DNA of 64,000 nt from positions 25,221 to 89,220 of the IMG/VR virus record IMGVR_UViG_3300015371_000008; one strand, written 5' to 3'. The position numbers and the translations under genes were made by a program. This DNA comes from a virus. Under the pieces are notes generated by a model. That model saw only the letters and a list, made by a program, of their open reading frames with translations. It made no database searches and was not told where the DNA came from. How positions within the stretch are numbered: the first letter of the stretch is position 1; each line of letters opens with the position of its first letter. Positions 6,910 through 63,994 of the stretch are shown one piece after another.

Positions 6910-7717
6910 GGGAAGTCCAAGCCGCCTCCCAGGTGATCGGCCCAACCACGCCGTCGGCCACCAGCCCCTTCTCCGCCTGGAAGGCGCGGGCAACGTCGGC
7001 GTCGGCGCGGGCCCACGCCGAGTCCACGACGATGGACCAGCCGCGCTGCCGCATCTGCCGCTGCCACGTAGCGACGTCGCTGCCGCGCATAGGCGGGTTC
7101 TTCACCGTGAAGTAGCGGCCCGGCCACACCGGCACCTGGACGGCGGTCACCGGCGGCTCCGTCGTGATGGCATTAAGCGCCTCATGGACCATGGCCAGGA
7201 ACCAATCCCACGGGAAGCCCGGCCCCGGGTCGGTGTGGTCGGAGCGTTTGTAGACGGCCGACACGTCGGCGTGGCAGGTGATGCCGCGATTGCCTGCCGC
7301 CAGCTCCGCCCGGGTCAGCCGCCGGACGGGCAGGCCGTACTTTGCGCACCAGGCGGCGGTCACCTTGGCCGCCTGACCCAAGGCCGCCTTGGAGTAGTCA
7401 TCCAGCCATTCGTCGCGGGACTGCCGCATGTATCCGGCGATCTCCAGTTGGAGGCCGTCAGTGTTGGCGCCGGGCGCGGCGTACGCGGTGTCCTCGTCGG
7501 GGACGCAGCGCACCGCAGAATCGTTGTCTACGCAGATGTGGGCGGAGGCGACGACGCCGGAGTCCCGGAAGTAGCGGGCCACGTTCTCGGCCGTCAGCGG
7601 CCCCTCAGGGGCTTCCGCATCGTGGATGACGACGAGCCGGACGGTGGCGAGGCGGCCCTTTCTGTACTGGCTGGACAGGATGGTCTGCATATCGGCACGG
7701 TCGCGCCCGACAGGCAT
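6899..7717 (-). CDS. endolysin: N-acetylmuramoyl-L-alanine amidase with peptidoglycan-binding domain
   Basis: 272 aa with this ATG. Amidase_2-type domain: VRLVVIHDAEAP (first zinc His), AHICVDNDSAV, and CHADVSAVYKRSDHTDPGPG with the H..DPG signature. C-terminal PG_binding_1-type domain (WARADADVARAFQAEKGL, DGVVGPITWEA). It cleaves the peptide stem from muramic acid at lysis. Starts are uncertain: GTG at 7738 and ATG at 7690 are in frame and none has a clear Shine-Dalgarno. No holin is obvious next to it. Confidence 0.9.
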   Translation of the reverse strand: MPVGRDRADMQTILSSQYRKGRLATVRLVVIHDAEAPEGPLTAENVARYFRDSGVVASAHICVDNDSAVRCVPDEDTAYAAPGANTDGLQLEIAGYMRQSRDEWLDDYSKAALGQAAKVTAAWCAKYGLPVRRLTRAELAAGNRGITCHADVSAVYKRSDHTDPGPGFPWDWFLAMVHEALNAITTEPPVTAVQVPVWPGRYFTVKNPPMRGSDVATWQRQMRQRGWSIVVDSAWARADADVARAFQAEKGLVADGVVGPITWEAAWTSPIT

Positions 7718-7745
7718 TAACGTCGCGGGCTGCGACACGCAGACG

Positions 7746-7781
7746 CCCCGCCGAAGCCTTGCGGCAAAGACTCCGGCGGGG
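7746..7781 (-). terminator. hairpin between endolysin and upstream gene
   Basis: 15-bp stem beginning CCCCGCCG, closed by CGGCGGGG, loop TGCCGC; no T-run. It lies after the stop of the 151-aa gene and immediately before the possible endolysin starts. Confidence 0.5.
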
Positions 7782-7794
7782 CGGGAACGGGGGA

Positions 7795-8250
7795 TCAGGG
7801 GGTGTGCTTCCAGGCGGTCCGCTGCGCCGGGTCGGCGTAGACGAGGCCGAATAGGAGGGTGGCCGGGCTGCACCGGTCAGGGTCGGGCACGAGGCGTACG
7901 GAGGAGCCGCAGATCTGCGGCTTGTGCTTCAGCACCATGACGCCGTCCCAGATGTCGGCCGGATGTTCGGAGCGGAAGCCGAGCAGGCCGTCTCCCGCCT
8001 CCAGCCTGGCGACGGGGACGGGGGTGACCGGGTATACGCCGGTGGCACAGAACAGCATCCAGTCGCCGGGGCGGAACGTGACGACTCCGCTGTTGCGGGT
8101 GGCGACGCGGTAGCCGCGCTGTTGGGTGACGGAGAAGTCGGCGCCGAGGGCGGAAAGTGTTCCCGCGATGGCGCCGTGTGTTTCGAATGCGGATTCGTCG
8201 GCTTGCTGTTCCAGGGCGGGGATGTGGAACACGGTTCTGATCGGTGGCAA
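7795..8250 (-). CDS. hypothetical protein, TTG start
   Basis: 151 aa (MPPIRTVFHIPALEQQADES). The TTG start is fixed by AAAAGGAG at 6-nt spacing. The leader starts right at the upstream stop: TAG is followed by AGCGACGCC, so the conserved GAGCGAC box overlaps the previous gene's end. Beta-rich (GVVTFRPGDWMLFCATGVYP). No family recognised. Confidence 0.65.
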   Translation of the reverse strand: MPPIRTVFHIPALEQQADESAFETHGAIAGTLSALGADFSVTQQRGYRVATRNSGVVTFRPGDWMLFCATGVYPVTPVPVARLEAGDGLLGFRSEHPADIWDGVMVLKHKPQICGSSVRLVPDPDRCSPATLLFGLVYADPAQRTAWKHTP

Positions 8251-8276
8251 GGTGGTCTCCTTTTGGCGGCGTCGCT

Positions 8277-8552
8277 CTAGCCGCTTTCGTCGATTCTGGT
8301 GGGCAGTTCGGATTGTATGGAGCGGTAGTGCGGGCTCGGTTGCTCGCGTGGTGGCGGCGGTTTGGTCACTTCTTCCAGGTAGGCGTTGACTCGGGCGTAG
8401 ATGTAGTCGAGCAGGGCTTTGGCTTCGACTGTGTTGACGCCTTCTCCTAGGTGGAGCCTGACCTGGTTCGTCCAGTCGAAGCTGATCACTAGGCGGAAGC
8501 GGTCGAGTTGAAGAGTCGGAGGTCGCCTACCTTGGGGTTGTTGTGGAGCCAT
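8277..8552 (-). CDS. hypothetical protein
   Basis: 91 aa; an N-terminal Pro/Gln/Arg-rich stretch then LVISFDWTNQVRLHLGEGVN. Overlaps the upstream gene by 26 nt. Unknown function. Confidence 0.6.
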   Translation of the reverse strand: MAPQQPQGRRPPTLQLDRFRLVISFDWTNQVRLHLGEGVNTVEAKALLDYIYARVNAYLEEVTKPPPPREQPSPHYRSIQSELPTRIDESG

Positions 8553-20936: not shown

Positions 20937-21577
20937 GGGGTTTTGACGAGGTCGAAGAACTCGCTGCGCATCGCCACACTGTCCCGGAACGAGCCGCGCA
21001 GGTGCGACGTCACCATGGCCGCGCCGACCGCGCGGGCTCCCCGCAGCGTCATGCAGGAGTGCGCTGACCGGATCACGCACGCCGCCCCCTCGGTGTCGAG
21101 GTTGCGGACGATCGCGTCCACGATCTGATCGCCGAGGCGTTCCTGCATCTGCGGCCGGGCCGCGTACTCCTGCACGATCCGGGCCAGCTTCGACAGGCCG
21201 ACCACGCGGGCGCCCGGCGCTGGAACGTAGCCGACGGCGGCCGTGCCGGTGAAGGCGAGGAGGTGGTGTTCGCAGATTGAGGTGAACGCGATACCCGGCA
21301 CGATGATCATGCCGGGGTTGTTCGACGGCGGCGGGAATGTCCGGGCGAAGTGCCGGTCCGGGTCGGCCCGAGTTCCGGCCGTCAGCTCGACCAGGGCGCG
21401 CACGAACCGGCCCGGCGTCTCCTCGGTGCCGTCGTCGTCGCACGGCATCCCCAGCGCCCGCAGCATCGCGCGGGCATGCATGACGGCGACGTTGAAGTCC
21501 CCGGCCGCTTCCGGGTCCGTCTCGATGTAGCCGACCGGGTCCGGCAACCCGTACGTGTAGATCTCTTCTACGGCCAT
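20933..21577 (-). CDS. folE: GTP cyclohydrolase I
   Basis: 214 aa. Makes 7,8-dihydroneopterin triphosphate from GTP, the first step toward preQ0. Family motifs are visible: zinc-site CEHHLLAFTG with the second Cys in SAHSCMTLRG, GLSKLARIV, and QERLGDQIVDAI. Last gene of the 7-deazaguanine cassette; TGATG overlap with queE. Confidence 0.95.
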   Translation of the reverse strand: MAVEEIYTYGLPDPVGYIETDPEAAGDFNVAVMHARAMLRALGMPCDDDGTEETPGRFVRALVELTAGTRADPDRHFARTFPPPSNNPGMIIVPGIAFTSICEHHLLAFTGTAAVGYVPAPGARVVGLSKLARIVQEYAARPQMQERLGDQIVDAIVRNLDTEGAACVIRSAHSCMTLRGARAVGAAMVTSHLRGSFRDSVAMRSEFFDLVKTP

Positions 21578-22314
21578 CAGCGCCCCCGCTCGTCTCCCCA
21601 GAGCAGCACATGCATGCGATGGGTGTAGTTGAACCGGTAGAACAGCGCCTGCTCTACGGTGTTCCTGGTGGTGACGGCCAGCACTTCGGCGCTCCGCCCC
21701 TCCGGCATGATCCAGACGCGTTCGGCCGGGATGTCCAGGTCAGTGACGTAGGCGGCGACCGCATCGACGTCAGAGGCGATACGGCATACCCACTTGAAGA
21801 CGGCTTTGCCCGTGTCGCGGAACGCGGTCAGCACCTCGGGCCGGATCCGCTTCTCCTCGCTCATCCCGGCGTGCGCCAACTTGGGGCTCACGTTGAACTG
21901 GCTTACGCAGGCAACCGTGTAGGCGTCGGGGGTGATGGTGCCGTTCGTCTCCACCTCCACCCGTTTGCCGAGCCGCTTCAGCCCGTCCAGCAGGCTGCGC
22001 CATCCCTCCTGCTGCTGGTGCAGTAGCGGTTCACCGCCGGTGATGACGACCATGTCGGCGCCGTGCTGCTCCACTTCGGCCAGGATCCCGGCGACCGGCG
22101 CCCGCGTCAGCTCCTCGCGCAGGTTGTAGCGGTCGGCGTTCCAGGTGTATTGGGTATCGCACCAGCCGCAGGACAGGTTGCAGCCGCCAGTGCGGACGAA
22201 CGACGCCGTACGGCCCGCCGACGCTCCTTCGCCTTGCCAGGTTGGGCCGAAGCATTCGGCGATCACCAGGGATTCGTCTGTGCTGAACAGCTCAACCGGG
22301 GGGGTGTCGGTCAT
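21577..22314 (-). CDS. queE: 7-carboxy-7-deazaguanine synthase (radical SAM)
   Basis: 245 aa. Cluster-binding motif CNLSCGWC (CxxxCxxC) after FGPTWQGEGASAGRTASFVR, TGGEPLL, and ETNGT of the QueE family. It converts 6-carboxy-tetrahydropterin to 7-carboxy-7-deazaguanine. ATGA overlap with queD fixes the start. Confidence 0.95.
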   Translation of the reverse strand: MTDTPPVELFSTDESLVIAECFGPTWQGEGASAGRTASFVRTGGCNLSCGWCDTQYTWNADRYNLREELTRAPVAGILAEVEQHGADMVVITGGEPLLHQQQEGWRSLLDGLKRLGKRVEVETNGTITPDAYTVACVSQFNVSPKLAHAGMSEEKRIRPEVLTAFRDTGKAVFKWVCRIASDVDAVAAYVTDLDIPAERVWIMPEGRSAEVLAVTTRNTVEQALFYRFNYTHRMHVLLWGDERGR

Positions 22315-22817
22315 GCGCTCTCCCGTAGGGGTTGGGTGGCTCGGGACCACACCTCGCGCACGGTGACGCGGGGGGCGGGCGCCTCCCACTCTGCCGCGTT
22401 GACGTGGGTCTCCGTCACCACAACGCGCGCAATGTGGGTGCCGTCCGGCGGTTCCGGCGGCAGCCACATGACGGCCCGGTCGGCGATCATCTCCGCGACC
22501 GCCTCCACCGTCGGCCAGTCGGCGCCGGGCCAGTCGTAGCCGAACCGGAACACCTTGCAGCCGTGCTCCAGCAGGATCTTGGCCAGCGGATCCTGATTGC
22601 CGAGCATGGCGCCGTGGTCAAGGTTGGTGTCGATCCAGGCGCGCATGTGCGCCTTGAAGCCGCCGAACTCCACGATCGTGCCGTAGCCGTCCAGTTCGGG
22701 GGCGGACACCGTTACCGTGGCCCACCAGGAGTGGCCGTGCAGGTTGGTGCACTTGTCGCCGAGTAGCGGCAGCCGGTGGGCCGCTTCGAAATTATGACGA
22801 ACGGAAATGGAGCGCAT
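22311..22817 (-). CDS. queD: 6-carboxy-5,6,7,8-tetrahydropterin synthase
   Basis: 168 aa. Zinc histidines in HNFEAAHRLP and NLHGHSW, catalytic Cys in DKCTNLHGH, and a TETHVNAAEW-type end. Converts dihydroneopterin triphosphate to carboxy-tetrahydropterin. No Shine-Dalgarno is visible: the ATG lies inside the 3' arm of a strong hairpin (22809-22844). Confidence 0.93.
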   Translation of the reverse strand: MRSISVRHNFEAAHRLPLLGDKCTNLHGHSWWATVTVSAPELDGYGTIVEFGGFKAHMRAWIDTNLDHGAMLGNQDPLAKILLEHGCKVFRFGYDWPGADWPTVEAVAEMIADRAVMWLPPEPPDGTHIARVVVTETHVNAAEWEAPAPRVTVREVWSRATQPLRESA

Positions 22818-23704: not shown

Positions 23705-24567
23705 GGGCCGTAGCCCATCGCGTTCATCACCGCGTACACCTCGCCCAGCCGGGCCGGACTCGTCGTCACGACGTTCCAGTGCAGCCGGTTCCAGAACTCG
23801 CGTGCCGGTTCGGTGAAGTCGATGCCGTCCGGATACGTCGCCTCCACCTGCCGCCGGTAGCCCCGGGCGGCGAACGCCACATACCGGTACAGGCAGGCCC
23901 AGCAGCGTCCGCAGTGGCCCGGCATGTCGGCGAAGCAGGAGCGGGCGGCCAAGGCGTCCTCCAGCCAGCCCCGGGCGGCCCACCATGACACGCAGTCGGC
24001 CTTGGACATGCCGATCAGTGGGGAGGACAGGCGGAAGTCGAAGCCGTTCGCGGTGGCCATGTGCTGCATGGTGGACGCCCACCGGAACGACTTGTCGCCG
24101 CCGACGATCGGTGTCTCCAGGTAGTTGCCGCCCAGGTGGCCGAACCAGACTTCGCCCCACCAGCCGTGAGCGTGCGCCCATTCCAGCAGCCGCCACACGA
24201 TGATCGAATTGCGGCCGATCTGGAAGTCTCCGACGGCGGTCCAGTCGTCGCCCACCTCCAGCATGTGCAGGCGGCCCTCAGTCAGCCGTAGCGCGGCTTC
24301 CCGGTCGCGGCGGGCGTACGGCACGCCGGTGGCCGCCATGACCGCCTCTACGGGCAATCCAGCGGCGCGGGCCATCCGGTAGCAGGTGGAGGAGTCCAGG
24401 CCGCCGGACACCGGGATGATGATCCGGAAACGCGGGTCGTCACGGTCGGCGTGCGGCAGCATCTGCCGCCGGAACGCGGTGTCGTCGCGACCCAGCCGCC
24501 ACACCGCGCCCGGGTCGCCGCCGTCCAGCGCCGTCATCTCTTCGACTGCGTCGCCGGGCAGGTTCAC
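23701..24567 (-). CDS. queC: 7-cyano-7-deazaguanine (preQ0) synthase
   Basis: 288 aa. ATP-pyrophosphatase motif SGGLDSSTCY near residue 50, GHLGGNYLETP, and the zinc site C..H.CGRCWAC near the end (CFADMPGHCGRCWAC). Forms preQ0 from 7-carboxy-7-deazaguanine. GTG start with AGGAGG and GTGA overlap with dpdA. The N-terminal ~45 residues before the P-loop motif are longer than in cellular QueC. Confidence 0.93.
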   Translation of the reverse strand: MNLPGDAVEEMTALDGGDPGAVWRLGRDDTAFRRQMLPHADRDDPRFRIIIPVSGGLDSSTCYRMARAAGLPVEAVMAATGVPYARRDREAALRLTEGRLHMLEVGDDWTAVGDFQIGRNSIIVWRLLEWAHAHGWWGEVWFGHLGGNYLETPIVGGDKSFRWASTMQHMATANGFDFRLSSPLIGMSKADCVSWWAARGWLEDALAARSCFADMPGHCGRCWACLYRYVAFAARGYRRQVEATYPDGIDFTEPAREFWNRLHWNVVTTSPARLGEVYAVMNAMGYGP

Positions 24568-25511
24568 GCTGCCGCCTCCTGTCGTGTGCGCTGCACGACC
24601 AGGTCCACGATCAGGTCGAAGTCGCCCTCCGATCCAACCGCGAGGTAGATCTTGGGGCCGTTGAAGTGGATTCCGGGCGGTGTCGGTACGTAACGGTGGA
24701 CGGCCAGGTGGTCGGCGTAGTTCATCCACGACAACAGTGCGGAGGAGGAGGTCCAGTCGCGTTCGGCCCGGCCCAGCTCCTTGCCGCGCATGCCGACGCG
24801 GGCGAAGCCAGGGTTGGCCAGAGCGACGGGATCGCCGCCATAGGCGCGCACCAGACTGGCGGAGGGGCGTCTAACTCCCCTTTTGATGTCGTCGGGGTGG
24901 CGCACGCACACCCATCGACCTCGCCCGCTATCGAAAAGGGTGATGGAGCCGTTGCGACTGCCCTGGGACCAGAAGGATGAGTCCACGCTGTAGAAGGGCA
25001 GCAGATCGGGGTAGGGCGGCCGGGTCATGCCGAGTCCGTGCAGGACGGCGCCGTGCGCTCGTGCGATCTTGTGGGCGCGGATGAGCCACTGCATCATCGC
25101 CTTGCCCCGGGCGTTGACGGCGACGCCGCCGCCGAGGGCGACGAACGGATGCGTCGCGCACCACCGTTCCAGTTCCGACCATGGCGAGCCGACGTGGAAG
25201 ATCGGGATGATGTAGGTGGCGTCGCCCACCATCTGCTCCAGTTCCAGGGTGTTGCGGCCGGACGCGGCCGGATCCCCGATGACGTCCAGTGTCATGGCGC
25301 AGTTGACGTACGGGCCGTATACCTGCAACCAGGTTGCATACCCCTTCAGCGAGATCGTCTTGCCTGTGGTGTAGGCGGTGAACGCCCCCGAGTCGGCCAT
25401 GAAATCCACCTCCACGCCCCGTTCCCGGGCCCGGCGGACCAGCTTGCCCAGGTCCGTCTTGGCGAAGTAGGCGAACGAGCCGAGGATGGTGACGCGGCGT
25501 TCAGGCTGCAC
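24564..25511 (-). CDS. dpdA: DpdA-like DNA transglycosylase
   Basis: 315 aa. TGT-related TIM-barrel reading: VDFMADSGAFTAYTTGKTIS, NCAMTLDVIGDP, HVGSPWSELERWCATHPFVA and LHGLGMTRP. These are characteristic of the short phage DpdA enzymes that exchange guanine in DNA for a 7-deazaguanine. Adjacent queC and a ParB-like gene support this. GTG start, 11-nt overlap with the ParB-like gene. Confidence 0.9.
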   Translation of the reverse strand: MQPERRVTILGSFAYFAKTDLGKLVRRARERGVEVDFMADSGAFTAYTTGKTISLKGYATWLQVYGPYVNCAMTLDVIGDPAASGRNTLELEQMVGDATYIIPIFHVGSPWSELERWCATHPFVALGGGVAVNARGKAMMQWLIRAHKIARAHGAVLHGLGMTRPPYPDLLPFYSVDSSFWSQGSRNGSITLFDSGRGRWVCVRHPDDIKRGVRRPSASLVRAYGGDPVALANPGFARVGMRGKELGRAERDWTSSSALLSWMNYADHLAVHRYVPTPPGIHFNGPKIYLAVGSEGDFDLIVDLVVQRTRQEAAA

Positions 25512-46143: not shown

Positions 46144-46638
46144 TTACGCCTCCGGTAGCGGTGGCGCCTCCAGACGGCCGCGTAGCGCAGCCGCCTGAAC
46201 GGACCACTCGCTCACCCCAGCGGCGCGCGCCTCCACGACCGTCGCCTCGAACGCGGCCAGCGCGTCCGCCGCCGCCTCCCGGGTCTTGCGCGCCTTCCCG
46301 GCCGCCGACTGTAGCCACAGCTCCCAGCGCGCTTCCTGCTCCCGCGTCAGCACGGGGAGATCCGGCTCGTCGTCCGGCGCGATCGGGTCGGGTTCGACGG
46401 GTGGCGGGGCAGGCTTGACCACAGGGCCGCCTGGGCGGCGCTGTGGGGCCCGCTGACGGCTCTTCGCTGGCTCCTGCAGCCCTTCCGACACCCGGCCGTC
46501 CGCTGAGGCGTCAGCGGCGGTCTCAGCCGCGTCGGTCTCCGGCGCGGGCGCGGCCTCCTCCCCGGTCTGGACGGCGCCGTGCGCGATGAGCGCCTCCTTG
46601 GCGGCATCCGTCGGCGGCAGCTCCCGGCGGGCGGCCAC
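46144..46638 (-). CDS. putative ParA partner (ParB-analogue)
   Basis: 164 aa. Mostly disordered: Ala/Glu/Pro-rich start (AADASADGRVSEGLQEPAKS), basic Arg/Pro middle, then a helical end (ARKTREAAADALAAFEATVV). GTG start overlaps the parA stop. Position and composition suggest the centromere-binding partner of ParA, but no HTH or ribbon-helix-helix is evident. Confidence 0.55.
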   Translation of the reverse strand: MAARRELPPTDAAKEALIAHGAVQTGEEAAPAPETDAAETAADASADGRVSEGLQEPAKSRQRAPQRRPGGPVVKPAPPPVEPDPIAPDDEPDLPVLTREQEARWELWLQSAAGKARKTREAAADALAAFEATVVEARAAGVSEWSVQAAALRGRLEAPPLPEA

Positions 46639-47480
46639 TACGCCACCGCCTTCACGTAGCGGTCGCCCAGCGCCTCGGCAACACTGACGATGTCGCCGCC
46701 CGCTTTCTGCGGCGGCTCGGCGAACTCGGACGCCGACTCCTGGATGCGGATCGTCTGCGGCACGTTCGGCTGCCAGGCGAGCGGCCCCCAGACGTTCACG
46801 ACCTCCTCCGCCCGCGTCTTGTGCGTCTTGGCGTTGTGGTGCCGGAAGTTCGTCACCACGCCCATGACCTCGGAGGCGGCGCCGATAGCCTTCCCCTCAT
46901 TCGGGTTGTTCATGAAATTGATGATCTTGCGTACGCCGTTGATGCTGTCCGTCTCCGGCCACGTCACGAACAGGACGCGCCCACGACGCCCACCGGCGCA
47001 CAACGCGTTCTGGCCAAGCCCGGCCAGGCCCGGCGGCGTGTCAATCAGGATGTCGGTGTAGTCGCCCGCGACGACGGTCAGCGCCCGCCTCAGTCGCAAC
47101 CAGCTCCCGGCGCCGCCCTCGGCGAAGCGGCCCAGCTCGATCCGGCTGGGCAGGACGTCGATGTTGTCGGCGAAGTCCTCCTCCCACTGACACGGCAGAA
47201 TCGCCTGCTTGATCAGGTCGGGGTTGGTGTCGATATCGCGGAACACCTCCGCGACCGAAAGCCTGGCCGCCATGTCGGCGGCGGCGATGCCGAGGCGGCG
47301 GGTCAGGTTGGCCTGCGGGTCCAGGTCCACGGCGAGCAGCCTGCGCGGCTTGCCGTTGCGCTGGCGTTTCGCCAGGGCGGCGAGCAGGAGTTGGAGGAGG
47401 AAGGTTTTCCCCACTCCGCCCTTGAAGTTCATGATGGCGGTGATGTCGGCTTCGTCTGGCACTGCGGCTTGGGCAGCCAT
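46638..47480 (-). CDS. parA: ParA-family partition ATPase
   Basis: 280 aa. Deviant Walker A NFKGGVGKT near residue 18, DLDPQANLTRRLGIAAAD, and DILIDTPPGLAGLGQNAL. These are the three ParA/Soj signature regions. ParA proteins move plasmid copies to daughter cells, which fits an extrachromosomal prophage. Followed directly by its partner gene. GAGAGAGACC before ATG. Confidence 0.93.
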   Translation of the reverse strand: MAAQAAVPDEADITAIMNFKGGVGKTFLLQLLLAALAKRQRNGKPRRLLAVDLDPQANLTRRLGIAAADMAARLSVAEVFRDIDTNPDLIKQAILPCQWEEDFADNIDVLPSRIELGRFAEGGAGSWLRLRRALTVVAGDYTDILIDTPPGLAGLGQNALCAGGRRGRVLFVTWPETDSINGVRKIINFMNNPNEGKAIGAASEVMGVVTNFRHHNAKTHKTRAEEVVNVWGPLAWQPNVPQTIRIQESASEFAEPPQKAGGDIVSVAEALGDRYVKAVA

Positions 47481-58828: not shown

Positions 58829-61594
58829 ATGACGATCAAGCACGCGGTAGCGACGGCGGTGACCGCCGACGGTGAGCACGTGAAGGCCCCCAAATGGCTG
58901 CGTCACGTGGCGCCCTGGTTCCTCGGGCTCGTCGTCATGCCGCTCGTGATCTGGTGGTTCAGGTCCATGTGGGTGGGCGACCTCGCTCTGTACGTGGCCG
59001 CGTTCATGCTGCTCGTGGTGGGCGCCGGACTGACGGGGGTGTCCTACCACCGCAGTCACGCACGCAGTTCGTGGCAGGCGAAGTGGGCCGGGCCCGCCTA
59101 CACGGCCGTACCCATGGGTTTCCTGACGCTCGCGACCCTCACCGGATTGGGCCCCATTCCAGACGGGATCATGTTCGTGGTGTGGCTGATCGGCACCCTC
59201 GGCAGTTGCCTGGCCTGGAACCTGTACTTTGCCAAGCGGTCGGAGGGGGAGGTCACCTACGACCTGCCGAAGACGAAGGTGGACAGGAAGGCGATCACGG
59301 CGGCGGCTCTGGCCACCGCCCTGCCACCGGGCAGCGGCCCGGCGGCTCTGCCCGACGTGGATGGTGAGGTCATCTCCGACACCACGGAGACGACTCCCAT
59401 GCACCCGGAAGTGGCCAAGGCGCTGGCGAAGGTCAACGCTGAGAAGGCGTTGATGGAGGCGCGGGCGGCGGCGGCGGCGGCGGACGCCAACGCCCGGCGC
59501 GTCGTCGGCGGGTGGCGGGAGCTGGTCGGCTTCGACCCGGCCAGTCAGCGGGCGACGGGTCCGCTGAGGTTCATGCACTCCAGCGCGTTGAAGGTCACCC
59601 GTAACGAGCCGTACTGCACGGAGCTGCGGTTGCGGCTGGGTGACGGCATCGAGCCGGAAGCGCTGGACAACGCACGCGGCAAGCTGGCCGCGAAGTTCCG
59701 GGTCGGCAAGCCTGACGTCCGGATCATCCCCAACAAGAAGGACCACGGTGACGTCCGGCTGCGGGTGGTCTGGTTCAACCCGCTGGAGGAGACCGTCCAC
59801 TGGCAGGGGCCGCGCCACCCCGGCATCTGGTGGGGCAGTGAGCCGATCGTCTTCGCCAAGCGTGAGGACAACACCGACGGCCGCCTGCTGCTGCCCAGCA
59901 ATAAGAAGCACGGTAAGCCCAACTCCAGCCACGTCCTGGTGGAAGGGGTCAACGGAGCGGGCAAGTCGGAATCGATGCTGGTGGTCGCCGGTGAGGGCTG
60001 CTCCCAGCAGGGTGTGTGCTTCTTCGGGATCGACGTCGGCAAGGTGTTGCAGACGTTCGGGCCGATCATGCCCGCGATCGACTGGATGGCCACGGACAAG
60101 GTCGCGGCCAAGATGATGATCAAGGCGATCATCGAGGCCGGTCTCCAGTCACGCGGCGCCCTGTTCGGCCGCCTGGGGGCTAAGGAGTGGTCTCCGGAGC
60201 TGGCCCAGAAGTACGGCATCCCCTACATCGTGATCTTCATCGAAGAGGGCGGCCTGATCTTCGAAACGCTCGGCCGCGACATCACCAAGGTCCTGATGCT
60301 GGCCCGCTCCCTGGGCGTCTGCATCTGGGGATCCATCCAGCGCGCCCAGCACGAAAACATGGACACCAACGCGCGGGCCCAGTTCACCGAGGTCATGACG
60401 TTCGGCATGACGTCCGACGACGACGTGTTCGGCATGCCGGAGTGGCTGATGGACATGGGCGCCTCCCCGGAACAGTGGGGAAGCAGCCTGCCCGGCATGC
60501 ACTACCACCACACCCCACTCCTGGCCCGCGACGACCAGTCCACGCCACAGCGGTCCATGCTGACCGACGCGACCATGCTGCGGCAGGTCACCGAGCGGTA
60601 CGGGCCGAACATGATGCAGCCGGAGCAGACGTTCGTGAACGCGATCAACGGCTTCCGGTACAAGACCAAGGGCGAAGACGAGATCACCGACCTGTACGAC
60701 CGCCGGGAGACCGGCATGGACGTGGAGCGGCGACTGAAGGCCGCCGGTGGCATCGCCCTGGACGACCGCGAAACGGTCGAGGCGATCACCGACGCCGCGC
60801 CGGAGCAGGCCGGAGCCGAGGTCCAGCAGGAGGAGGCGCGGGAGCGCGCCGCCGGGCTGGTGCCGCCGATGCGTGAACGGGAGTCGGTCACCCTAACACG
60901 GCGCAACCCGTACGACACCGCACCTGCGGCGCCGCAGCCCCGGCCGGAGGAGGACGACCCCGACCTGATCGGGCCGGAAGAGGAAGAAGAAGAGCGCGCC
61001 CGGCAAGCAGCCCTGGCCGCTGAAGACGACGACGAGGCGGAGATCGTCCACGTCGGAAAGGAGCTGGTCTACATGCCAGGAAGAAACGGACAGCCCGACC
61101 GGATCATTGACGGTGACGGCGAAGAGCTGGAACTGGACGACGACTTCGAGGACGACGGCGACGACGAGGACGACGACATCGAGATCGACGACGGCCTCGA
61201 AGGTGACGACGAGGAGGGGTTCGCCGACGACGACCACGCGGCCACGTCAGTTCCGCAGCACGCGTCCCAGATCTTGTGGTTCGACGATGACGACGATGAG
61301 GAGTTCCATGAGCCGCCGGTCAGCCGGGAGGAGGCGCGGCGCAACCTGCTGCGCATCCTGGCGGGTGACGGCCCCGGCCACGTGTTCCAGACCGGCGACT
61401 ACTACGACCACCCTGAGTTGCCGTATGTGGATCGGGCCAAGTCGTGGATCCGCCAGGAGATCATCAACTTCGCGGAGGCGGGCGTCTACGTCGAGCTGGT
61501 CAACGAGCCGGGGTCGGACGACGACGGCAAGTACCGCACCACGGAGATGATCCGGAAGGTGCCGCGCCCGGCCCCGCTGGCGGTCGTTTCGTAA
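58829..61594 (+). CDS. FtsK/TraB-like DNA translocase
   Basis: 921 aa. N-terminal membrane spans (WLRHVAPWFLGLVVMPLVIW; LALYVAAFMLLVVGAGLTGV; PMGFLTLATLTGLGPIPDG), then Walker A VNGAGKSESMLVVAGEG near residue 373 and Walker B IPYIVIFIEEGG near 465. A very acidic stretch (about residues 710-800, repeated DDD/EEE) precedes a C-terminal winged-helix-like end. The family moves double-stranded DNA in cell division or in actinobacterial plasmid transfer (TraB). The KorA-like regulator and DUF2637 gene favour the transfer reading. AAAGGAGGTCC before ATG. Confidence 0.9.
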   Translation: MTIKHAVATAVTADGEHVKAPKWLRHVAPWFLGLVVMPLVIWWFRSMWVGDLALYVAAFMLLVVGAGLTGVSYHRSHARSSWQAKWAGPAYTAVPMGFLTLATLTGLGPIPDGIMFVVWLIGTLGSCLAWNLYFAKRSEGEVTYDLPKTKVDRKAITAAALATALPPGSGPAALPDVDGEVISDTTETTPMHPEVAKALAKVNAEKALMEARAAAAAADANARRVVGGWRELVGFDPASQRATGPLRFMHSSALKVTRNEPYCTELRLRLGDGIEPEALDNARGKLAAKFRVGKPDVRIIPNKKDHGDVRLRVVWFNPLEETVHWQGPRHPGIWWGSEPIVFAKREDNTDGRLLLPSNKKHGKPNSSHVLVEGVNGAGKSESMLVVAGEGCSQQGVCFFGIDVGKVLQTFGPIMPAIDWMATDKVAAKMMIKAIIEAGLQSRGALFGRLGAKEWSPELAQKYGIPYIVIFIEEGGLIFETLGRDITKVLMLARSLGVCIWGSIQRAQHENMDTNARAQFTEVMTFGMTSDDDVFGMPEWLMDMGASPEQWGSSLPGMHYHHTPLLARDDQSTPQRSMLTDATMLRQVTERYGPNMMQPEQTFVNAINGFRYKTKGEDEITDLYDRRETGMDVERRLKAAGGIALDDRETVEAITDAAPEQAGAEVQQEEARERAAGLVPPMRERESVTLTRRNPYDTAPAAPQPRPEEDDPDLIGPEEEEEERARQAALAAEDDDEAEIVHVGKELVYMPGRNGQPDRIIDGDGEELELDDDFEDDGDDEDDDIEIDDGLEGDDEEGFADDDHAATSVPQHASQILWFDDDDDEEFHEPPVSREEARRNLLRILAGDGPGHVFQTGDYYDHPELPYVDRAKSWIRQEIINFAEAGVYVELVNEPGSDDDGKYRTTEMIRKVPRPAPLAVVS

Positions 61595-61679: not shown

Positions 61680-61860
61680 GATCGGGTGTCAGACGGCAGG
61701 TGTCTGACACCCGATCGGCGGGGTGTCAGACACCCAAGATCGTAACTCTGAGTGAAAAACTGGGGCTTTTGTCACAGTTTGTCACCGAGTGTCCGTCTGA
61801 CACCTGCAGAAAATCACACCAGACATCACCAGACAGGCATCTAACAGGCATTCCTAACAG
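61680..61860. repeat. cluster of palindromes and direct repeats
   Basis: The 281-nt gap after the translocase gene holds a 15-bp inverted repeat (61680-61694 and 61702-61716), 13-bp palindromes GGTGTCTGACACC (61699-61711) and GGTGTCAGACACC (61722-61734), a half-site (61795-61804), and direct repeats of CACCAGACA and TAACAGGCAT up to 61860. Candidate binding sites of the transfer or partition machinery. Confidence 0.7.
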
Positions 61861-61875: not shown

Positions 61876-63027
61876 ATGAACACCCCACACGCCCCCGACG
61901 ACGCGCACTCCACCGGCTACTGGTGGTTCGTCATGCTGGTCATGGGCGGATTGTCGCTGACCTTCAACCTGTGGATGGTCATCGACCCCCCAGAGAGCGT
62001 CACCGCAGGTCAGGCGGCCACCAACATGATCCTGGGGGTCATCGTGCACGCCTCGCCGGTGCTGCTGTCCGGCATCGTGTCGCACGGCTTCAAAACCCCC
62101 CTGCTGGGCAAGTGGGAGCGCCGCGTCATCATCGGCCTGTTCCTGCTCTTCATGGTCATGTCGATCTCCCATCAGGCCGAACTGCTGGAGCGGGGCGCAC
62201 ATCTGGACTGGGCGTGGGCGTGGTCCCTGCCCGCTGCCATCGACACCATCGCCATGCTCGCATTGCGGGCGATCCTGAACGCCCACCGGCTCAACAAGGA
62301 GGCGGCCACGGCGAGGGACATCGCCGCCGAGCGGGCCGCCATCGAGGCAGACATCCGGCCGGACATCGAGGCGGACATCCGCCGCCAATTCGAGGGACAT
62401 CTGCCCGCCGTTCGCAGGGACATGGAGGCGGACATCTGGAGGGACATCTTCAGGGACATCGGGGTGGACAACCCGGTGGACACCGGGGGGGACACCGACC
62501 GGAATCTGCCCGCTCTCGTCGAGCTGATTCAGGAGGACATCCTGCGCCGGAGGGAGGCGGAATTCGCCGCCCGCGACAGGGACATGTCCCAGCGGTGGGA
62601 GTTGGAGCGGGTGGACTTCGAAGACCGCATCCGGGCTGAGGAGCAGGAGGCGGCGATGGAGCGGTGGCAGCAGCAGGAAGAGACTTTGGCGTCCCAAATT
62701 GAGTTTCGCTTGCGGCGGGAGCTGCGGCCTGGTAAGGGCTCCGGCAGTCAGACGGCCGGACGGCGGGCCATCCCTGCCGCCAAGGACGCTGCACCCAAGG
62801 TCAGCCAGGAAAAGGGGATGGAGATCGTCCGCCAGGCGCTGGAGGACGGCGACACCCTGACGAACGGCGAACTCGCCGGAATGATCGGCGTCAGCACGAA
62901 AACGGTCGGCCGGTACAAGAAGATTTTGCGAGCCGAAATGGGGTTGGCGCCCAACGCCGACGACGAACTGGACGACGAAGCCGACGGCGACGCAGGGCAT
63001 GGCCTGGGATCCCTTCGGGCCGTGTGA
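61876..63027 (+). CDS. DUF2637 membrane protein with C-terminal HTH
   Basis: 383 aa. Four N-terminal spans (GYWWFVMLVMGGLSLTFNLW, NMILGVIVHASPVLLSGIVS, IIGLFLLFMVMSISHQAELL, WAWSLPAAIDTIAMLALRAI) are the DUF2637 layout, found next to plasmid transfer genes. A helical RDI/ADI/EDI-rich middle, encoded by the GGACAT array, follows, and the end has an HTH (NGELAGMIGVSTKTVGRYKK). GGAG precedes ATG at 9 nt. Confidence 0.85.
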   Translation: MNTPHAPDDAHSTGYWWFVMLVMGGLSLTFNLWMVIDPPESVTAGQAATNMILGVIVHASPVLLSGIVSHGFKTPLLGKWERRVIIGLFLLFMVMSISHQAELLERGAHLDWAWAWSLPAAIDTIAMLALRAILNAHRLNKEAATARDIAAERAAIEADIRPDIEADIRRQFEGHLPAVRRDMEADIWRDIFRDIGVDNPVDTGGDTDRNLPALVELIQEDILRRREAEFAARDRDMSQRWELERVDFEDRIRAEEQEAAMERWQQQEETLASQIEFRLRRELRPGKGSGSQTAGRRAIPAAKDAAPKVSQEKGMEIVRQALEDGDTLTNGELAGMIGVSTKTVGRYKKILRAEMGLAPNADDELDDEADGDAGHGLGSLRAV

Positions 63028-63309
63028 CCGCCGCCATGTCCGCGCCGCAGCCGAGCACTGTCCCGCCCCGGATGTCCCTCACCGGACGGGACAGTGTCCC
63101 GGCCGGTGTCCCTCTGAAAGTCCACCCGATGTCCTCATGGATGTCCTCATGGATGTCCTCATGGATGTCCCACCCGATGTCCCACCCGACGTCCCCCTCG
63201 TGTCCCTCCGAATGTCCCTGTCTCCAGGGCCGGATGTCCCACCCCCGAAACCCCGCCCTGTCCCTCCTCTGTCCCCCGTCCGGCGGCCCCGATGTCCGTC
63301 CGGATGTCC
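62316..63309. repeat. phased hexamer array GGACAT / ATGTCC, inverted
   Basis: About nine GGACAT plus GGACAA/GGACAC variants between 62316 and 62585, seven of them exactly 12 bp apart (62418, 62430, 62442, 62454, 62466, 62478, 62490). The palindrome GGGACATGTCCC sits at 62579-62590. From 63036 to 63309 the motif is ATGTCC (about 12) with CTGTCC/GTGTCC variants; copies at 63129, 63141, 63153, 63165, 63177 and 63189 are again 12 bp apart. The whole forms two opposed arms. Confidence 0.85.
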
Positions 63310-63331
63310 ACCCCACCCGAAGGAGAAATTC

Positions 63332-63994
63332 ATGACCATCACCACCACCGCAGGCGTCCGTGAGTCGTTCACCACGACGCTCGGCTACGACGCCGACGTA
63401 ACCCCGGTCACCGTCCGCGCGTCCGGCAACATCCTCATCCAGGGCTACACCGGCTCCGGTAAGTCGTACGTGCTGGACTGCCTGGGCAAGCAGTGGCGCT
63501 CCCAGGGCGCCGACGTCACCGAGGTTCGCTCCGATAGTTGGTACGCGCTGCACCGCAACGGCGAGGCGCGTCATCTCGGCATCGGCCAGGTGACGGAGAT
63601 GCTATGCGACCTGGCCCAGTCGTTGCGCTACAGCAACCGATCGGCCGAACCGTCCATCCTCATCCTGGAGGACCTCAACCTGACCAGCAGGGCGGTGTTC
63701 GAGCCGGTCGAGGCGATCCTGCGGCTCGGCCGGGGGAGCAACATGCACGTCGTCCTGTCCACTCAGCCAATCCACGGCCTGCTGGAGCGGCTGCGCAAGC
63801 TGTGCGCCACCACCGTCTACATGGATCCCAGTCGGGACTACGACGTGCCGGAGGAGGTGATGGAGCGGGCTCTGGCGCGGGCGGGCGTCTGGCACGACGG
63901 CGCCCTGCCGACCGGGCCGGGTTCGTTCATCGTCGCCAACGGCCGCTGTGACGTCGGTAGGGTCGTCGCGGAACCGAAGGAGGAGCGCCGGTGA
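63332..63994 (+). CDS. small FtsK/HerA-like P-loop ATPase
   Basis: 220 aa. Walker A GYTGSGKSYVLDCLGKQW near residue 40, Walker B SILILEDLN near 110, then an ATP-sensor-type segment GRGSNMHVVLSTQ. It is only an ATPase core with no membrane region. Follows the array, so it may act on it. AAGGAGAAATTC before ATG. Confidence 0.8.
   Translation: MTITTTAGVRESFTTTLGYDADVTPVTVRASGNILIQGYTGSGKSYVLDCLGKQWRSQGADVTEVRSDSWYALHRNGEARHLGIGQVTEMLCDLAQSLRYSNRSAEPSILILEDLNLTSRAVFEPVEAILRLGRGSNMHVVLSTQPIHGLLERLRKLCATTVYMDPSRDYDVPEEVMERALARAGVWHDGALPTGPGSFIVANGRCDVGRVVAEPKEERR

Follow-up and report, generated by a model that had tools for sequence, protein, structure and literature searches.

What is a dense array of short, regularly spaced DNA words doing inside a membrane-protein gene, and which protein reads it? 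The question is raised by a stretch of 64,000 nucleotides, hereafter the window, which comprises positions 25,221–89,220 of an 89,220-bp IMG/VR record. About 30 copies of a short word lie here in two facing arms, inside and just behind a gene for a membrane protein with a C-terminal helix-turn-helix (HTH) domain. In what follows we argue that the protein made from this gene very probably binds at a site that the gene itself carries.

The array stands out against chance and against the remainder of the element. The window holds 50 copies of GGACAT/ATGTCC where 29.8 are expected, a number as high as this being seen in none of 100 shuffles. The whole record has 63 GGACAT sites, 22 of which fall within 62300–63320, a 46-fold enrichment over the rest of the record, and other 1-kb windows of the record contain at most three sites each. 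A first-pass annotation of this DNA had made its proposal hinge on such a local enrichment across the element, and these counts bear it out.

The same annotation described two opposed arms of hexamers, the first within the gene and the second in the spacer before a small ATPase gene, and in this it was correct. The forward arm (62316–62590, plus strand) lies within the membrane-HTH gene and has 13 GGACA at 62316–62584, ten of these being GGACAT. The reverse arm (63037–63309, minus strand) occupies the non-coding spacer and has 17 TGTCC, mostly ATGTCC (11). The orientation was thought to flip near the palindrome GGGACATGTCCC. This is indeed present, at 62579–62590, but it ends the forward arm; there is no single flip point, and between the arms lie about 450 bp of HTH-coding sequence without copies. 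Likewise, the claim of exact 12-bp spacing holds in the runs 62418–62490 and 63130–63178 but not overall. Gaps between copies are 11–14, 22–24 and 45 bp, corresponding in both arms to a beat of about 11.6 bp. Regularity at this period is high (R of 0.90 and 0.94 for the two arms, as regular in 0 of 3000 random placements), whereas a 10.5-bp period gives an R of only about 0.1. Since the beat is also present in the non-coding arm, the codons are not the sole cause of the phasing.

The copies have a common core, GGACA(T)(C), and share little else, the flanks being without conservation. The hexamers had been said to force RDI, ADI and EDI repeats on the protein. Most of the coding copies are in frame as this supposes, while the one at 62395 lies in a different frame from the others and gives G-H-L instead of R/A-D-I. 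The coding arm of the window has 15 copies compared with 8.4 under a synonymous-codon null (11/2000), which is only a modest excess, so that the DNA-level argument in the window is carried by the non-coding arm. The second-strongest 7-mer cluster of the window, a GACGAC-rich segment at 61100–61300, codes for an acidic D/E run in the neighbouring translocase and looks like protein-level low complexity.

The array sits in a module of three plus-strand genes. A TraB-like, FtsK-type DNA translocase of 921 aa (58829–61594) is about 29% identical to Streptomyces TraB over the motor region and has a winged-helix-like C-terminus. The membrane-coiled coil-HTH protein of 383 aa follows (61876–63027), with four predicted N-terminal hydrophobic helices (residues ~10–135, 61903–62280; model pLDDT 50–65, together with the sequence) and a C-terminal tri-helical HTH (residues 311–355, 62806–62940; pLDDT about 88), which we propose as the array reader. 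The third gene encodes a small P-loop ATPase of 220 aa (63332–63994), with matches to PIF1/AAA_16 profiles and a start set by the ribosome-binding site AAGGAGAA; searches of plasmid and viral collections gave no relatives of it. The predicted model of the membrane protein places a long helical stalk or linker between the four N-terminal helices and the HTH, although this single-sequence model is reliable for the HTH alone and of low confidence for the remainder. The HTH region has weak matches to HTH profiles, and a PDB fold search with the protein gave NarL/DosR- and FapR-like HTH matches that are weak and not significant by E-value.

This protein had initially been labelled DUF2637, a label that the Pfam search did not uphold. 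The PF10935 profile has no match at E ≤ 1 in the window protein or in the record, while relatives from other loci do match it (L016, L021, L023, L029 and L034), and profile comparison of window-type proteins with the PF10935 family gave no convincing similarity. In layout and position the protein is nonetheless SpdB2/DUF2637-like: according to the gene order and a predicted model of low overall confidence, it has N-terminal membrane helices, a long linker and a C-terminal HTH, and its gene lies beside traB. As the protein falls outside PF10935 by profile, grouping it with this family is based on the position of its gene, its domain layout and the presence of the array. We found no relatives in the genome and viral contigs searched directly, and a DNA search of plasmids with the array region gave no match.

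One plasmid relative of the protein was found, in a plasmid of Streptosporangium sp. NBC_01495 (L004, 9977–11056). It is 30% identical over the protein, and the gene order matches that of the window: translocase, membrane-HTH gene and motor ATPase, the last being FtsK in the plasmid. This locus also has two facing arms, in gene and spacer, with the word GCGGAACT and a beat of 11.4 bp, and both loci have one coding copy out of frame with the others. The words of the two are related but different, and the HTH regions are 30–33% identical; the clade has these two members only.

The rest of the element has a mixed gene content. Between 162 and 9763 of the window, and at 24030–25424 of the record, there are matches to a DnaB-like helicase, SSB, an amidase/endolysin and collagen-like ‘head decoration’ and tail-fibre-like proteins, alongside the conjugation module and ParA. 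No terminase or portal was found among the proteins scanned, hence the element could be a plasmid, a phage-plasmid or a fragment. A ParA-type ATPase (46638–47480, minus strand) and a small downstream gene form a separate partition module 15 kb from the array. A queuine tRNA-ribosyltransferase-like protein (24564–25511) near a radical SAM protein (21577–22467) is suggestive of 7-deazaguanine DNA modification.

Are such arrays found elsewhere? Our comparison took in some 90 related loci from plasmid and viral collections, and it indicates that arrays of this kind are widespread among actinobacterial mobile elements. Loci around plasmid relatives of TraB were scanned for over-represented 7-mers, and almost everywhere the equivalent gene was found to host an array, which is the strongest of its locus in 17 of 20. 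The words vary widely, e.g. GGTACC in Thermobispora, GGGGACC in three Streptomyces plasmids, AACGCGA in five plasmids, and also CGGTCGG, AGCCGAA and CGAAAGC. Classical plasmids are included: pWTY27 has 13 in-gene copies of GCGAACA, an array that equals the known RepA iterons in strength, and pJV1 has 12 of CGTGAGC, with pSN22 as pJV1. The spdB2-like gene of pSN22 (L031, 5361–6430) is apparently split relative to that of pJV1, with the HTH part in a separate reading stretch after 6109. In pSVL1 (L034) there are eight copies of TCTCCAA at about 1951–2450, beside parA; these are a candidate centromere and distinct from the GGTCAC array behind the DUF2637 gene of this plasmid.

A search for similar arrays beside DUF2637 genes had been suggested, and it proved informative. 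In a fresh test set of DUF2637 relatives from viral contigs, with 69 usable loci, the DUF2637 region hosts the top array in 55, and arrays with a log10P below −10 occur in this region in 50 loci compared with elsewhere in nine. Most of the 14 loci without a top-ranking in-gene array belong to one DUF2637 clade with a shared C-terminus (L139–L150). The nine members examined have a GCGCGCC array of about 1 kb, with 30–42 GCGCGC sites, at about 7400–8450, 2–3 kb downstream of the gene. Among the exceptions, the array is absent from L022 and weak in L024, L035, L092 and L109. An 11-bp beat was entertained as a general rule and rejected, as it is clear in the window and in L004, weak in the GCGCGCC arrays and absent from L034 and L013. 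The window itself has the arrangement that characterizes the proposed class, a word array in linker codons and/or the adjoining spacer that is the strongest of its locus.

These arrays are visible to selection as DNA. The copies fall into at least three frame/strand classes in 34 of 45 loci, e.g. GCGAACA in pWTY27 encodes R-E-Q in one frame and A-N-T in a second, and CGTGAGC in pJV1 is read as R-E and as V-S. In all 20 loci so analysed the copy count was above that of all 1000 synonymous recodings, a result that is descriptive because each word was picked as the strongest of its locus; no such choice enters into the comparison, in the 69 loci, between the gene region and the best array outside it. 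The use of several frames and of both strands, and the excess over synonymous-codon expectation, imply that selection acts on the DNA. Copies cluster in the second half of the gene. Base pairing between the two arms in mRNA was also considered as an explanation, and was dropped because the copies in most relatives run mainly in the same direction.

Which protein, then, does the word follow? Across 54 DUF2637 loci, sharing of the word correlates with HTH similarity when the N-terminus is held constant (partial Mantel r 0.89, 0/2000), a measurement that concerns these relatives and not the window's own two-member clade, and in which the locus pairs are not phylogenetically independent, for which conditioning on the N-terminal domain corrects in part. 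With HTH similarity held constant, word sharing shows no relation to the N-terminal membrane domain (r −0.04). None of the 1223 pairs with low HTH similarity share a word, even though 489 of these are 70–98% identical in the N-terminal part, and proteins that are 92–97% identical in the membrane domain but have different HTHs host unrelated words. The plasmid loci behave in the same way: same-word pairs have C-termini that are 62–93% identical and different-word pairs are at most 39% identical, very short alignments aside.

A convenient example is a pair of Streptomyces plasmids (L016 and L017) that are about 91–97% identical over many kilobases. Their TraB C-terminal domains are identical, and both have the clt word GCGCACC. 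The DNA identity, here 91–95%, breaks off 7 bp short of the membrane-protein gene and is regained 19 bp beyond it; in between, the gene, the HTH and the word are completely different. The converse is found in L020 and L033, in which the TraB heads or clt words differ, yet the in-gene word is that of plasmids with the shared HTH. The in-gene word thus does not follow the TraB C-terminal winged helix. The first-pass annotation had named the neighbouring ATPases or the HTH as possible readers, and from these the protein's own HTH emerges as by far the best supported, with neither motor supported.

In addition, the translocase appears to have a site of its own. The spacer behind traB holds four TGACACC/GGTGTCA copies (61685–61804, no strand assigned), and such a TGACACC cluster is common to the window, Thermobispora and Nonomuraea plasmids and pWTY27. 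In pWTY27 the TGACACC clt repeat is footprinted by TraA (PMC3583192), and CCGCACA in pSN22 and L033 is the reported pJV1 clt repeat. From these sequence matches, the TGACACC cluster is the probable clt of the window element, a candidate for recognition by the TraB-like protein. As it lies in a separate spacer, the clt and the in-gene array are two different sites, each with a proposed reader of its own.

Several other explanations of the array deserve consideration. A clt transfer locus, where the TraB-like translocase would use its C-terminal winged helix to load at the phased sites and then pump the element out, was our first favourite. The array is directly downstream of the TraB-like gene, and known clt sites are arrays of 5–9 bp repeats, several of which adjoin tra (PMC3583192). 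The separate TGACACC cluster between traB and the membrane-protein gene, which has the clt word of pWTY27, and the independent variation of in-gene and clt words, with identical TraB heads accompanying different in-gene words in sister plasmids, make this explanation quite unlikely; TraB was dropped as the favoured reader in view of the double dissociation of the in-gene word from the TraB head and clt word. The array might instead be a by-product of coiled-coil repeats at the protein level or of tandem duplication. Half of it is non-coding, copies are found out of frame and on both strands with unconserved flanks, and synonymous-codon nulls are rejected, which refutes this idea for the family. 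The in-frame R/A-D-I repeats, some tandem units in the reverse arm and the clearly duplicated units of L013 speak for it, and in the window alone the coding arm is only modestly above its null; overall we regard it as highly improbable.

The cis-acting role suggested by the first-pass annotation is strongly supported, with the transfer-locus version weakened by the clt-like TGACACC sites and without positive evidence for a centromere or an origin. A partition centromere, with a ParA as partner and the membrane protein as an unusual ParB, is nevertheless worth weighing: phased arrays of HTH sites look like static centromere arrays, parA is close to some of the DUF2637 or equivalent genes (L034 and L013), there is a weak ParB-like HTH match, and in SLP2 Spd1 and ParABS are redundant in intramycelial movement (PMC13245405). 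The small ATPase is not a ParA; no ParA-type NTPase is adjacent, with the record's own 15 kb away; L034 has its distinct TCTCCAA array beside parA; and for many genes with an array the flanks fetched contain no parA. We therefore consider a centromere unlikely. Sites in the protein's own gene would also suit autoregulation, with the protein or another regulator, e.g. one of the GntR regulators common in these modules, using the array as an operator or roadblock to control its own operon. Sites are rare upstream of genes (14 in 45 × 370 bp, as opposed to 625 within genes), dozens of copies far exceed what an operator needs and the reader is membrane-anchored, so we judge this very unlikely. Short iterated sites in an intergenic region are also reminiscent of replication iterons. 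However, the RepA iterons of pWTY27 (GTGGGAAC) form a different array, located elsewhere than the in-gene GCGAACA (PMC3583192), and an origin seems exceedingly improbable.

We return to recognition by the protein's own HTH. The array is likely to serve as a set of repeated recognition sites for the membrane protein's C-terminal HTH, by which the DNA is tied to a membrane complex for spreading or positioning of the SpdB2 type, and site and protein are likely to form a swappable cassette. For the wider family, reading by the protein's own HTH is strongly supported by the covariation of word and domain sequences. We infer that the window protein itself binds GGACAT, and that the DNA is thereby tethered to the membrane. 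Several HTHs, carried on the long helical stalks of a membrane-embedded oligomer, would occupy the phased sites and hold the element's own DNA against a membrane complex. This complex would be located beside the TraB-like pore, probably at the septum or at the tip of the hypha. The protein may then mark or position the bound DNA for intramycelial spreading or even distribution. With the sites placed in the codons of an unconstrained linker and in the adjoining spacer, protein and site would stay together as one inheritable, element-specific cassette; the swap between L016 and L017 shows that such a pair moves as one unit of specificity.

A spreading or positioning site is favoured, by analogy, by three precedents. 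SpdB2 of pSVH1, as cited in PMC4170104, forms oligomers in the membrane, binds dsDNA and interacts with TraB; Spd1 of SLP2 is redundant with ParABS in intramycelial movement (PMC13245405); and SpdA2 binds to repeats that lie within its own gene (PMC4170104). The DNA binding of pSVH1 SpdB2 was reported as non-specific (Tiffert 2007, as cited in PMC4170104), which counts against site reading by the protein's own HTH.

We think it reasonably likely that these arrays form an undescribed cis-acting class in actinobacterial conjugative elements. These would be dual-coding ‘spread sites’, with an element-specific word in the linker codons, or next to the gene, of its membrane-anchored HTH reader and exchanged together with it, that have gone unrecognised in pJV1, pSN22 and pWTY27. 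No earlier description of such arrays was found in the open-access literature searched, although they may be mentioned elsewhere. The proposal bears on the way in which Spd proteins recognise plasmid DNA and carry it across hyphal septa. If true, it gives every plasmid, the three classical ones among them, a defined site that can be tested, for a protein family in which SpdB2 had been thought non-specific. The placement in coding sequence would also be a striking example of a DNA stretch that both codes for a protein and serves as the target of that protein. The natural pairs of HTH and word are a ready-made specificity series.

How do these arrays compare with known systems? The clt/TRS sites of TraB-type conjugation (pSVH1, pJV1 and pWTY27; PMC3583192) likewise consist of short repeats that are specific to each plasmid and lie in the tra region of these very elements. 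They differ in being read by TraB and in lying behind traB in the loci studied, and their words vary independently of the in-gene words. The static centromere arrays of plasmid partition similarly consist of many phased short sites bound by HTH or RHH proteins; these require a partner NTPase, whereas the proposed reader in the window is a membrane protein with no adjacent parA. BldC, a Streptomyces HTH protein, forms head-to-tail multimers on direct repeats of varying number (PMC5859096), but is a small soluble transcription regulator that acts on promoters and not a plasmid membrane protein. The SpdB2/DUF2637 proteins (PF10935) share the membrane domain, the helical or disordered linker, the C-terminal HTH and the proximity to traB, and the members in pJV1, pSN22 and pWTY27 have arrays; the differences are the description as a non-specific dsDNA binder and the lack of a PF10935 match in the window protein. 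The nearest parallel in arrangement is SpdA2 and its sps sites in pIJ101-type Streptomyces plasmids (PMC4170104), where a plasmid spread protein also binds repeats in its own coding sequence. There, one conserved 12-bp palindrome, present in two to three copies within spdA and common to many plasmids, is read by a small protein. The window departs from this pattern with about 30 copies of a non-palindromic GGACAT, and the arrays presented here generally have a word that differs from element to element, 6–30 or more copies and a membrane protein as the proposed reader.
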